From NCBI GenBank assembly GCA_011773985.1, contig WVWN01000062.1, positions 1 to 64,000 on the forward strand: a stretch of DNA of 64,000 nt, written 5' to 3'. The position numbers and the translations under genes were made by a program. The stretch comes from Candidatus Zixiibacteriota bacterium. Lineage in GTDB: Bacteria; RBG-13-66-14; B26-G2; WVWN01. A model generated the notes under the pieces. The model worked only from the letters and a program-made list of their open reading frames with translations. It did not search any database and was not told where the DNA came from. Positions 30,127-40,452 of this stretch are shown one piece after another (within the stretch, counting starts at the first letter, position 1; each line of letters starts with the position of its first letter).

Positions 30127-30155
30127 TTGTTTTTGACGGGCCAAAATGTTATATT
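30127..30155 (+). promoter_or_regulatory. Promoter of the ATP synthase operon
   Basis: TTGTTT (30127-30132) and TATATT (30150-30155) are separated by 17 bases. Transcription would start near 30162. The region 30054-30197 otherwise holds only the preceding terminator. Confidence 0.65.
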
Positions 30156-30197
30156 TTGCGAAAAATTTGGGCTGTTCGCTTAGGTCACAAGAACGGA

Positions 30198-30440
30198 TTG
30201 GCCTTGCCGTTAAGAGAAGAGAACGGGCCCGGCCGCGGCCGCCGCTTTCTCCGGAACGCTGCGATCGTCGTAAACTTGGTATGGACTTTTATGGCGGTTA
30301 TCTTCGGAGGGTTCTTTGGAGGATACTTCTTAGACAGGTGGCTTGGGACTTCGCCCGCGTTTACCCTCGCGCTTAGCTTTTTAGGCACGGCCGCGGCTAT
30401 CTACGTGGTGTTACGTGAAACGCCACGTTTGCTGAAATGA
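30198..30440 (+). CDS. atpZ: AtpZ/AtpI-type F0F1-ATPase assembly protein
   Basis: This small membrane protein of about 80 residues has two helices and the family hallmark FGGFFGGYFLDRWLGTSP, followed by a hydrophobic segment. Members precede ATP synthase genes in many bacteria and are thought to help in c-ring assembly or Mg2+/Ca2+ supply. The start is uncertain. TTG 30156 gives 94 residues but lies inside the predicted promoter, so TTG 30198 or 30204 is preferred, without a clear ribosome-binding site. The gene overlaps the next one by 4 bases (ATGA). Confidence 0.8.
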   Translation: MALPLREENGPGRGRRFLRNAAIVVNLVWTFMAVIFGGFFGGYFLDRWLGTSPAFTLALSFLGTAAAIYVVLRETPRLLK

Positions 30441-30844
30441 ACGACGTTAGGGAAATACCTTTCGCCGCGAGCTACGGTTTTAGCTTGATCGTCGCCGTCG
30501 GTGCTGCGGTCGCGGGTGCGGCGCTGTGGGGGGGCGGCGAATGGGCGTTAGGGGCTACGTTGGGCGCGGGGGCCGTGGCCGCGGATTTTTATTTCCTGGC
30601 CCTTTTTGCCGTTGCTTGGTTCGAGGCCGCCCGGCGCGGGGGCCGCGGCGTCCTGGCGCGGGGCTTATTAGCGTTGTTGTTTAAGGCCGCGTTGCCGCCC
30701 GCGATTATCTTCGCCGTGCTCTGGGCGCGGGTCGTGCCCGCGTTACCGGCCGCGCTGGGCGCGGCCGTCGTGGCCACCATCGCCCCCGCGTTTTTAGTCG
30801 TCCATTTTTTAGGAAAGCGAAGCGGCCGTCGGCCGGTTCGATAG
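30437..30844 (+). CDS. atpI: ATP synthase protein I (AtpI-like)
   Basis: This 135-residue hydrophobic protein has four predicted helices (about 12-32, 38-60, 76-98 and 100-122), in the position where atpI is usually found. Family members assist c-ring assembly and are weakly conserved, so the assignment rests on topology and context: it overlaps atpZ by 4 bases and ends 3 bases before atpB. The charged C-terminus KRSGRRPVR would face the cytoplasm. Confidence 0.7.
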   Translation: MNDVREIPFAASYGFSLIVAVGAAVAGAALWGGGEWALGATLGAGAVAADFYFLALFAVAWFEAARRGGRGVLARGLLALLFKAALPPAIIFAVLWARVVPALPAALGAAVVATIAPAFLVVHFLGKRSGRRPVR

Positions 30845-30847
30845 TAT

Positions 30848-37899: not shown

Positions 37900-39312
37900 A
37901 TGACGACGAGAGTAGAAGGTAAGATAGTCCAAATTATAGGTCCGGTCGTCGACGTCGAGTTCGACGGGGATAACCTGCCCGCCATTCGCGACGCGCTGGA
38001 GATTCCTCGCCGCCAGGGCGGCGTCCTTACGGTGGAGGTGTCCCAGGAGCTCGGCGAGAACCAGGTCCGCTGCATCGCGCTCGGGCCGGTGGACGGTTTG
38101 GTGCGCGGCGACGCCGCCTATCATACGGGGGGCCCGATTACGGTCCCGGTGGGGCCCGCCACGCTCGGGCGGCTCATAGACCTGGTCGGCAATCCCATCG
38201 ACGAACTCGGGCCGGTGGAGGGCGTGGAGCGGTGGCCCGTTCACAGGCCCGTGCCGTCGCTCACGGACCAGGATACCCGCTCCGAGATGTTGGAGACGGG
38301 CATCAAGGTCATCGACCTCTTGGAGCCGTTTTCCAAGGGCGGCAAAACCGGCCTCTTCGGCGGGGCGGGCGTAGGCAAGACGGTCCTCATTATGGAGATG
38401 ATCCATAATATTGCGACCGAGCACGGCGGCTACTCGGTCTTCGGCGGCGTCGGCGAACGTACGCGAGAGGGCAACGACCTCTGGTTGAGTATGAAGGAGT
38501 CGGGGGTCATCGAGAAGACGGCGATGGTTTTCGGTCAGATGAACGAGCCGCCCGGCGCGCGCTTCCGCGTCGGCCTTACCGCCCTCACGTTGGCCGAGTA
38601 CTTCCGCGACGTCGAGGGTAAAGACATTTTATTATTCATAGACAACATTTTCCGCTTCGTTCAAGCAGGCTCGGAGGTCTCGACGCTTTTGGGACGTATG
38701 CCGTCCGCGGTCGGGTACCAACCGACGCTGGCGACCGACATGGGAGACCTCCAGGAACGCATTACGTCGACGACGCGGGGTTCCATAACCGCGGTTGAGG
38801 CCATCTACGTCCCCGCGGACGATTATACGGACCCGGCGCCGGCCACGACCTTCTCCCACCTCGACGCCGTTACGGCCCTCTCCCGCCAGATAATGGAGCT
38901 GGGTTTGTACCCGGCGGTGGACCCCCTCGCCTCGACTTCCCGGATATTGGACCCGCGCGTTCTCGGCGAGCGCCACTACCGCGTCGCGCGCCGCGTCCAA
39001 CAGATTCTACAACGGTATCGTGAACTGCAGGATATTATAGCCATCTTAGGCATGGACGAGCTCTCCGACGAGGACAAGGTCATAGTCGGCAGGGCCCGAC
39101 GCATCCAGCGTTTCCTGAGCCAGCCTATGTTCCTCGCGGAAGCGTTCACCGGGAAAAAGGGCCGCTACGTGGAGGTGGAGGACACGGTCGACGGTTTCGA
39201 AAAGTTAGTCGAGGGCGAGTTCGACGAACTACCGGAGCAAGCGTTCTACATGGTGGGGACGATCGACGAGGCGGCGGACCGGGCGAAAGAGCTTTCCGGC
39301 GCGTCGTCGTGA
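37900..39312 (+). CDS. atpD: ATP synthase F1 subunit beta
   Basis: This 470-residue catalytic subunit has the P-loop [14 protein letters not shown] (Lys160), the catalytic-Glu region [15 protein letters not shown], Walker [20 protein letters not shown], and the DELSDEDK segment of the C-terminal domain. ATG 37900 fits the family N-terminus, but no Shine-Dalgarno sequence is present in the preceding 20 bases. Translation may depend on the upstream barrel gene or on an unstructured AU-rich leader. It is followed after 16 bases by a GNAT gene instead of atpC. Confidence 0.96.
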
Positions 39313-39328
39313 AAACGAAAGAGCGGCT

Positions 39329-40177
39329 GTGGGCACGAGGATAATAAAAGTGCGCCGCGCGGCGCCCGCGGAGTTCGACGAGGTCGCGGCGTTTTGTGCC
39401 GGGCGCGGTAAAGACGCGAAAACGCGCGAAATAAGACGGCGCCGGCGCTATTGGCTCGAGGAGATGGCGCCCCGCGGCCTGACGGTCCTTATAGCCCTGG
39501 ACCCTAAGCCGCCCCGCTTTTTGGACTTCGAAGGGGAACGCGTTAGCTGCGGCGAGTTGACGCTATTAACCGACGGCCTGGCCGTGGGTTTGTTGGAATA
39601 CGTCCCCATCGAGGAGACCCTTTACCCGGTAGACGGTAGGGATTACCTGTTCGTAGATTGTTTATGGGTTATTTCCCCCTACCGCCGCCGGGGCGTCGGG
39701 GGGGCGCTGACGAAGGGCGTCATCCGCGAGGCCCGCGCGAGCAATACGGGCGCGGCGGCGATCGCGTGGCGCGGGGAAGCGCCTTCCGGGAGCTGGTCGC
39801 TTATGCCGGAGGCTTTTTTTCGCACTTTCGGCTTCGACGTCGTCGACGAAGACGGTGACCGCGTTTTGATGGCTATAACCTATGGCGCAACCGGGAAACC
39901 TTCTTTCCTGAAGGCCGAGTGGAGCGAGGGCGAGGGGGTAGAGTTCCTGTGCCACCCGAGTTGCCCGGCGAGCCTTTGGGCCGCGGAGGAGGTTTTGCTT
40001 GAAGCAGGCGAGGCCGCTAAGGGCGGTGCCGTGAGGACCGTGGAGGCGGAAGGCAAGGAGGGCGTCCGCCGTTATGGCGCGTTGCTCGGCGTTCGCGTCG
40101 ACGGCCGCGTCGTCGTAAATCGCCTCGCTTTCCGCTGCGACGTCGCGCGCGCGCTCGAGAAAGGAGAGCGGCGATAG
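39329..40177 (+). CDS. GNAT acetyltransferase with C-terminal YoaP/thioredoxin-like domain
   Basis: The protein has 282 residues. The GNAT part (about 1-190) contains the acetyl-CoA loop SPYRRRGVGGALTKGVIREA (about 116-135), preceded by the strand YLFVDCLWVI. The C-terminal 90 residues contain FLCHPSCPASLWAAEEVL with two close Cys residues and then LGVRVDGRVVVNR, a pattern like YoaP-type or small thioredoxin-fold domains. A role as an N-acetyltransferase with an attached redox or peptide-binding module is inferred. It lies between atpD and atpC with 16 and 14 bases of spacing. Whether it modifies the ATP synthase is unknown. Confidence 0.78.
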   Translation: MGTRIIKVRRAAPAEFDEVAAFCAGRGKDAKTREIRRRRRYWLEEMAPRGLTVLIALDPKPPRFLDFEGERVSCGELTLLTDGLAVGLLEYVPIEETLYPVDGRDYLFVDCLWVISPYRRRGVGGALTKGVIREARASNTGAAAIAWRGEAPSGSWSLMPEAFFRTFGFDVVDEDGDRVLMAITYGATGKPSFLKAEWSEGEGVEFLCHPSCPASLWAAEEVLLEAGEAAKGGAVRTVEAEGKEGVRRYGALLGVRVDGRVVVNRLAFRCDVARALEKGERR

Positions 40178-40191
40178 CTCTTCCCACCGAG

Positions 40192-40452
40192 ATGAACCTG
40201 AGCTTGGTGACGCCGGCGGCGGTCGAATTTCACGGCTGCGTCACGTCCGTCGTAGCTCCCGGGACCGAGGGTTATCTCGGCGTCCTCCCGGGGCATATAC
40301 CGCTCGTAACTTCTCTCAAACCCGGGAAACTAACCTTAGTTTCCGCGGGGCGCCGCCGCCGCTTCGAAATAGGCGCGGGTTATTTGGAGGTAACGCCCGA
40401 TTCCGTCATAGTCATCACCGAGACGGCGAATCTAATGCGTGAGGACGTGTAA
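40192..40452 (+). CDS. atpC: ATP synthase F1 subunit epsilon, short form without C-terminal helices
   Basis: This 86-residue protein covers only the beta-sandwich domain: LVTPAAVEFHGCVTSVVAPG, then GYLGVLPGHIPLVTSLKPG, with the family G-x-L-P-x-H motif, and ITETANLMREDV at the end. Typical bacterial epsilon has about 130-140 residues with two C-terminal helices that can inhibit ATP hydrolysis. These are absent, because a clear TAA is followed 2 bases later by the next gene. It couples gamma to the c ring. Confidence 0.9.
   Translation: MNLSLVTPAAVEFHGCVTSVVAPGTEGYLGVLPGHIPLVTSLKPGKLTLVSAGRRRRFEIGAGYLEVTPDSVIVITETANLMREDV

Follow-up and report, generated by a model that had tools for sequence, protein, structure and literature searches.

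An F-type ATP synthase operon with four inherited, unrelated genes within its F1 block in a lineage of Coatesbacteria

Few gene orders in bacteria are as stable as the F1 block atpA-atpG-atpD-atpC. What should be made of an ATP synthase (atp) operon in which every junction of this block is occupied by unrelated genes? Such an operon is carried by contig WVWN01000062.1 of a Candidatus Zixiibacteriota bacterium (assembly GCA_011773985.1). The window analyzed here is a 64,000-nucleotide stretch of this contig, to which all coordinates refer, and the lineage, one of uncultured bacteria, is called Coatesbacteria, a working name. The gene order, all on the + strand, is atpZ-(I)-B-E-F-H-A-[lipoprotein]-G-[67-aa ORF]-[barrel-like]-D-[GNAT]-C (ORF, open reading frame; aa, amino acids). 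The ORF map and Pfam/TIGRFAM models show a complete F1Fo structural gene set in a single co-directional block. The window matches the canonical operon (atpIBEFHAGDC) in its structural genes, in their relative order and in the presence of atpZ/I before atpB. Whereas the canonical A-G-D-C order is uninterrupted, the window has four unrelated ORFs spread across A-G (a gap of 536 bp), G-D (about 1.8 kb) and D-C (one gene), with isoprenoid and cytochrome c maturation genes following at once in the same run. An earlier sequence-only reading had described this arrangement. Its ORFs, their order and strand and the intactness of the insertions stand, atpI being recognized by position and hydrophobicity, but the overlaps that it placed at both ends of the lipoprotein gene, a HicB-like identity of the 67-aa ORF and an operon ending at atpC do not. 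The lipoprotein gene does overlap atpG through a TAATG motif at its 3′ end, but its 5′ end (start at 34680, or ATG at 34683) merely abuts the atpA stop codon (TGA, 34677-34679).

Comparison with relatives indicates that the rearrangement is real and inherited and is not the accident of one strain. The comparison covered G001-G003 from the genus of the window, G004 from its order, G005 and G006 from its class, and seven genomes from its phylum, all seven in family f5; counts for the genus include the window and G001-G003. The nearest contigs by atpG are CP070633.1 (labelled Candidatus Coatesbacteria) and JAUWLW010000008.1 (labelled Candidatus Zixiibacteriota). The single-contig “chromosomes” of G003 (CP070633.1) and G004 contain joins of 100 N (for example L035:14200-14299 and L073:8864-8963), and therefore gene order across these joins is unreliable. 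The losses of GNAT-atpC in G003 and of the 5′ part of the operon in G004 are only apparent and are explained by these joins; since a run of 100 N follows atpD in G003, the missing genes are not evidence there. The atpA-atpG junction is readable in six genomes of the class and unreadable in G004. No atpG match was found in the f5 genomes. The two examined, G007 and G009, align to the window atpA/atpD at only about 27-29% and have open frames of about 600 aa, like those of V/A-type ATPases.

The lipoprotein gene lies between atpA and atpG in all six class genomes with a readable junction (the window, G001-G003, G005 and G006), which represent at least three families, and G005 carries two tandem copies there. 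By comparison, the atpA-atpG gap ranges from -22 to 91 bp in the controls from other phyla (about 21 loci with a measurable gap), and a profile search of 386 genomes found the lipoprotein family in 10 Coatesbacteria and one other genome. A search of the 19.5 kb surrounding the G005 operon recovered none of 19 neighboring genes of the window, so the gene order around the operon has changed while the lipoprotein insertion persisted. Between atpG and atpD, 4/4 genomes of the genus carry the 67-aa ORF and the barrel-like gene. In G004, which belongs to a second family, a barrel homologue (33% identity over the C-terminal 290 residues) stands immediately before atpD. GNAT-atpC is retained in the three genus genomes that can be read (the window, G001 and G002). 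G005 and G006 have a direct G-D-C order; neither carries any barrel-family gene, and their only GNAT relatives are distant paralogues located elsewhere, of a kind present in most genomes of the phylum. The sequence-only reading had named an undisturbed A-G-D-C order with these genes elsewhere as the sign of a chance insertion. No such order is seen for the lipoprotein, which every readable F-type operon of the class has in A-G, and “chance insertion in one strain” is thus excluded; G005 and G006 come partly close to it for the other insertions.

The inserted ORFs also evolve as genes do. The ratios of nonsynonymous to synonymous substitution rates (dN/dS, NG86 estimates against the genus relatives, approximate because dS is near saturation) are 0.23-0.43 for the lipoprotein, the fastest-evolving of the set, 0.11-0.22 for the 67-aa ORF, 0.17-0.20 for the barrel-like gene and 0.15-0.20 for GNAT, compared to 0.06-0.14 for the atp genes. 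By these estimates, all four are real genes, intact and under purifying selection. With dS around or above 1, all four genus genomes (4/4) retain the TAATG overlap. On a crude gene map, and leaving aside a single spurious ORF antisense to atpA, the window is one + strand run between 17.1 and 57.9 kb. Since tight packing is ordinary in this run, it is by itself no evidence of a functional link, and chance is ruled out because of the conservation across genomes, not because of the spacing.

What do these genes encode? In the lipoprotein, Cys21 is invariant (7/7) behind a hydrophobic N-terminus, with a small residue at position -1 (lipobox judged by eye). A PDB sequence search with its profile found no relative, and a fold search with its predicted structure gave nothing significant (best E 3.5e-3, TM-scores <0.4). 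Five of the seven operon lipoproteins show a weak profile similarity (best E 1.3e-6) to DUF4961 (PF16328), a family without assigned function on which our literature search found no paper. The window protein scores 13.2 bits, under the gathering cut-off of 27.1, and is 178 aa long compared to 283 profile positions; the G006 operon homologue (28.3 bits) and a G004 paralogue beside hisS (36.8 bits) exceed the cut-off. Relatives away from the atp operon adjoin hisS and a TolC-like gene (G004) or ftsX (G007 and G013), neighbor names that come from reading the sequences, and three f5 genomes with the family (G007, G011 and G013) have no F-type atpG match. Because its members adjoin unrelated genes and occur without F-type ATPase, the family is not bound to F-type ATP synthase; these members elsewhere argue for a general envelope role.

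Among the three other products, the sequence-only reading had seen two small regulatory-type proteins, a HicB-like one and GNAT, a label that finds no support. The HicB identity is untenable: the 67-aa ORF has no match at E<=10 in a Pfam HicB search, and hhalign against nine genuine HicB_lk proteins from the same genomes gave a probability of 2.3% over 20 residues. The resemblance is short and local (G-x-S/T-x-x-E-L-x-x-N) and the PxLPGC segment of HicB/HicB_lk is missing. No HicA partner is adjacent, the neighbors being atpG and the barrel-like gene with no spare ORF. The GNAT protein is rather enzyme-like and two-domain: its core (26.3 bits, PF00583 cut-off 20.7) is extended at the N-terminus and followed by a C-terminal domain with a conserved CHPSCP motif, both additions to the PF00583 acetyltransferases, and a PDB search with its profile returned weak GNAT matches only. 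The barrel-like protein combines a signal peptide and a beta pattern. Its only Pfam match is a weak CarboxypepD_reg, with no barrel match, and a PDB sequence search with its profile found no relative; the outer-membrane barrel reading is plausible.

We consider it fairly probable that these data reflect a stepwise, vertically inherited and lineage-specific accretion, in which envelope genes joined an F-type atp operon that is ordinary in other respects and whose expression they would share. The lipoprotein gene would have entered A-G before the sampled families of the class diverged, the 67-aa ORF and the secreted barrel-like gene would have entered G-D in the ancestor of the order or of the genus, and the GNAT gene would have entered D-C in the genus (G003 and G004 being unreadable for GNAT). 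The inserted genes are most likely co-transcribed with atp, so that envelope proteins would be produced under a strong, growth-linked expression. Within the genus, the TAATG overlap probably couples atpG translation to lipoprotein translation, and the lipoprotein frame may help to set the output of the gamma subunit. That ATP synthase expression is linked to the envelope, as the sequence-only reading proposed, is compatible with the single strand, TAATG and purifying selection; what is established of it is a conserved co-location. Several points weigh against stepwise accretion with shared expression. The class sample is small (seven genomes), and G005 and G006 show no TAATG overlap. The lipoprotein model (mostly beta, nine strands) is weak, with a moderate predicted local distance difference test score (pLDDT) of 66, and the AlphaFold model of the barrel-like protein, built from three sequences only, has a pLDDT of 34. 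The four inserted genes encode products of unassigned function, and their retention in an essential operon could be neutral for expression.

This last point is the core of the main rival, neutral hitch-hiking, in which genes landed by chance and stayed since clean removal from an essential operon is rare, their location having no regulatory value. We hold it to be rather unlikely, but serious. Packing in long same-strand runs is the rule in this genome, selection on atp shields embedded genes from rearrangement, and the four genes entered at different times, all as this rival would have it. Against it stand the purifying selection on the inserted genes and the conservation of TAATG throughout the genus. 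However, these show that the products matter, not their position, which makes neutral hitch-hiking hard to exclude. An assembly or binning artefact has far less to commend it: the assemblies are metagenomic and the G003 and G004 scaffolds contain 100-N joins, one just after atpD, but the same order occurs in four separate assemblies of the genus and the lipoprotein occupies the same place in two further families. These independent assemblies refute an artefact, whose probability we regard as negligible.

An accessory or assembly role of the lipoprotein, and perhaps of the barrel-like protein, in F1Fo, specific to this lineage and exerted at the periplasmic face of Fo, is also improbable. The A-G position of the lipoprotein is conserved across three families, the gene was duplicated in situ in G005 and it is absent from atp operons elsewhere. 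Yet the family occurs in genomes with V/A-type enzymes and without F-type ATPase, as well as beside unrelated genes, the insertion, whose product is exported, sits between genes for cytoplasmic F1 subunits, and the lipoprotein evolves fastest of the set. The assembly of accessory factors suggested by the sequence-only reading is weakened by the same members beside hisS/tolC and ftsX and in f5. Equally doubtful in our view is a wider version in which the lipoprotein would be either a lineage-specific ATP synthase partner (an anchor on the periplasmic side or a factor in assembly) or a governor of gamma output at the level of translation, tying the level of the synthase to the status of the envelope. 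Overall, physical work of the extra proteins with ATP synthase is unsupported by these comparisons, possible but disfavoured, and accretion of envelope genes that share atp expression remains our preferred explanation. The features of the locus are listed in Table 1.

Table 1. Features of the interrupted atp operon and of its surroundings (window coordinates)
Feature	Coordinates	Strand	Evidence or remark
Intrinsic terminator between the upstream gene and atpZ	30078..30102	+	AGAGGGC-GTAA-GCCCTCT, T run; -18.6 kcal/mol, z -4.5; hand scan
atpZ	30156..30440	+	PF09527, E 1.3e-14
atpI-position membrane protein	30437..30844	+	Position and hydrophobicity only; no Pfam match
atpB (Fo a)	30848..31603	+	Order; homologue at the same place in relatives
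atpE (Fo c)	31653..32027	+	PF00137, E 7e-15
atpF (Fo b)	32035..32547	+	Order; homology to relatives
atpH (F1 delta)	32555..33109	+	Order; homology to relatives
atpA (F1 alpha)	33120..34679	+	PF00006; 68-86% identity to class relatives
Inserted lipoprotein, 178 aa	34680..35216	+	Lipobox Cys21; beta-sandwich-like; distantly DUF4961-like
TAATG stop/start overlap of lipoprotein and atpG	35214..35218	+	4/4 genus genomes
atpG (F1 gamma)	35216..36121	+	PF00231, E 4e-89; TIGR01146
Inserted 67-aa ORF, family unassigned	36158..36361	+	66-73% identity, same place, 4/4 genus genomes
Inserted secreted barrel-like protein, 495 aa	36382..37869	+	N-terminal CarboxypepD_reg-like domain, PF13620, E 2e-6, under cut-off
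atpD (F1 beta)	37900..39312	+	TIGR01039, E 5e-241; PF00006
Inserted GNAT N-acetyltransferase, 282 aa	39329..40177	+	PF00583, E 1e-5, over cut-off; Cys-containing C-terminal domain (CHPSCP)
atpC (F1 epsilon), 86 aa, beta-sandwich domain only	40192..40452	+	PF02823, E 2e-23
Run beyond atpC: polyprenyl synthetase-like, ResB-like, CcsA-like, TPR protein	40455..45372	+	Gaps -19 to 4 bp

A clear intrinsic terminator upstream of atpZ delimits the atp transcription unit at its 5′ end, a further point in favour of the preferred explanation, and a promoter scan was uninformative, with five candidates compared to 4.3 expected. The co-directional run does not stop at atpC, where the sequence-only reading had bounded the operon: a polyprenyl-synthetase-like gene begins 2 bp later, and next come cytochrome c maturation genes resembling ResB and CcsA and then a TPR gene, in the same order in G001 and G002 (the TPR name comes from Pfam, the others from reading the sequences). 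Two subunits have features of their own. The epsilon subunit lacks the C-terminal helical domain, which in many bacteria inhibits ATP hydrolysis; the G005 and G006 versions are longer (frames of about 107-113 aa). Subunit c has a signal-like N-terminal extension. At the positions of the Na+ site of Ilyobacter tartaricus subunit c (Gln32, Glu65, Ser66 and Tyr70; PMC2359735), the six genomes read (6/6) have Gln, Glu-Thr and Tyr. The window and its relatives have Leu at the position of Thr67, which is polar in all predicted Na+ enzymes (PMC2359735). Na+ coupling of this ATP synthase is possible.

Upstream of the terminator, the gene at 29295-30053 (+) is a strong candidate for a new selenoprotein family, predicted to be a secreted parallel beta-helix protein. 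It contains an in-frame TGA at 29835-29837 within a CPG-U motif, and all full-length homologues (14/14; 12 from Coatesbacteria and two from other lineages, at 41% and 33% identity) have a single in-frame TGA, which falls at the equivalent position. tRNA-Sec scores over its cut-off in G000-G003 and SelB in G000-G004, and in G004 the selenoprotein-candidate genes and selB are 2-4 kb apart. Starting 12-15 nt 3′ of the TGA is a hairpin whose loop is typically AGUUU. Its stem covaries (GGUAC/GUACC, GGAAC/GUUCC, GGGAG/CUCCC, GGAGA/UCUCC and GGAGC/GCUCC), apart from the poorly paired copy G002b, and it folds more strongly than synonymous recodings (combined P ~3e-4, an approximate value as the sequences are related). 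No parallel beta-helix family is among the 119 selenoprotein families or subfamilies of a 2026 review (PMC13188914). Directly upstream of the atp operon, there are three tandem copies in G002 and G003 (L034 and L035) and one in the window and in G001. A C-terminal motif of the type [ST]-[FLIW]-G-x-[IVL]-K-A-L-[FY] (e.g. TSFGKVKALF or TWGKLKALYR) recurs among secreted proteins of these genomes (the 29295-30053 product, L104, L143, L144, L098 and L073:13616-14230) and is possibly a sorting or anchoring signal. This selenoprotein candidate, noticed beside the operon, may matter more on its own.

Our literature search found no description of a gene between atpA and atpG, and no paper combining Coatesbacteria with ATP synthase. 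A class in which three F1 junctions can be opened, and in which one insertion has been kept in at least three families, would be a natural case for weighing expression, function and inertia in the maintenance of gene order. Annotators of these genomes should expect unrelated proteins within atp operons.

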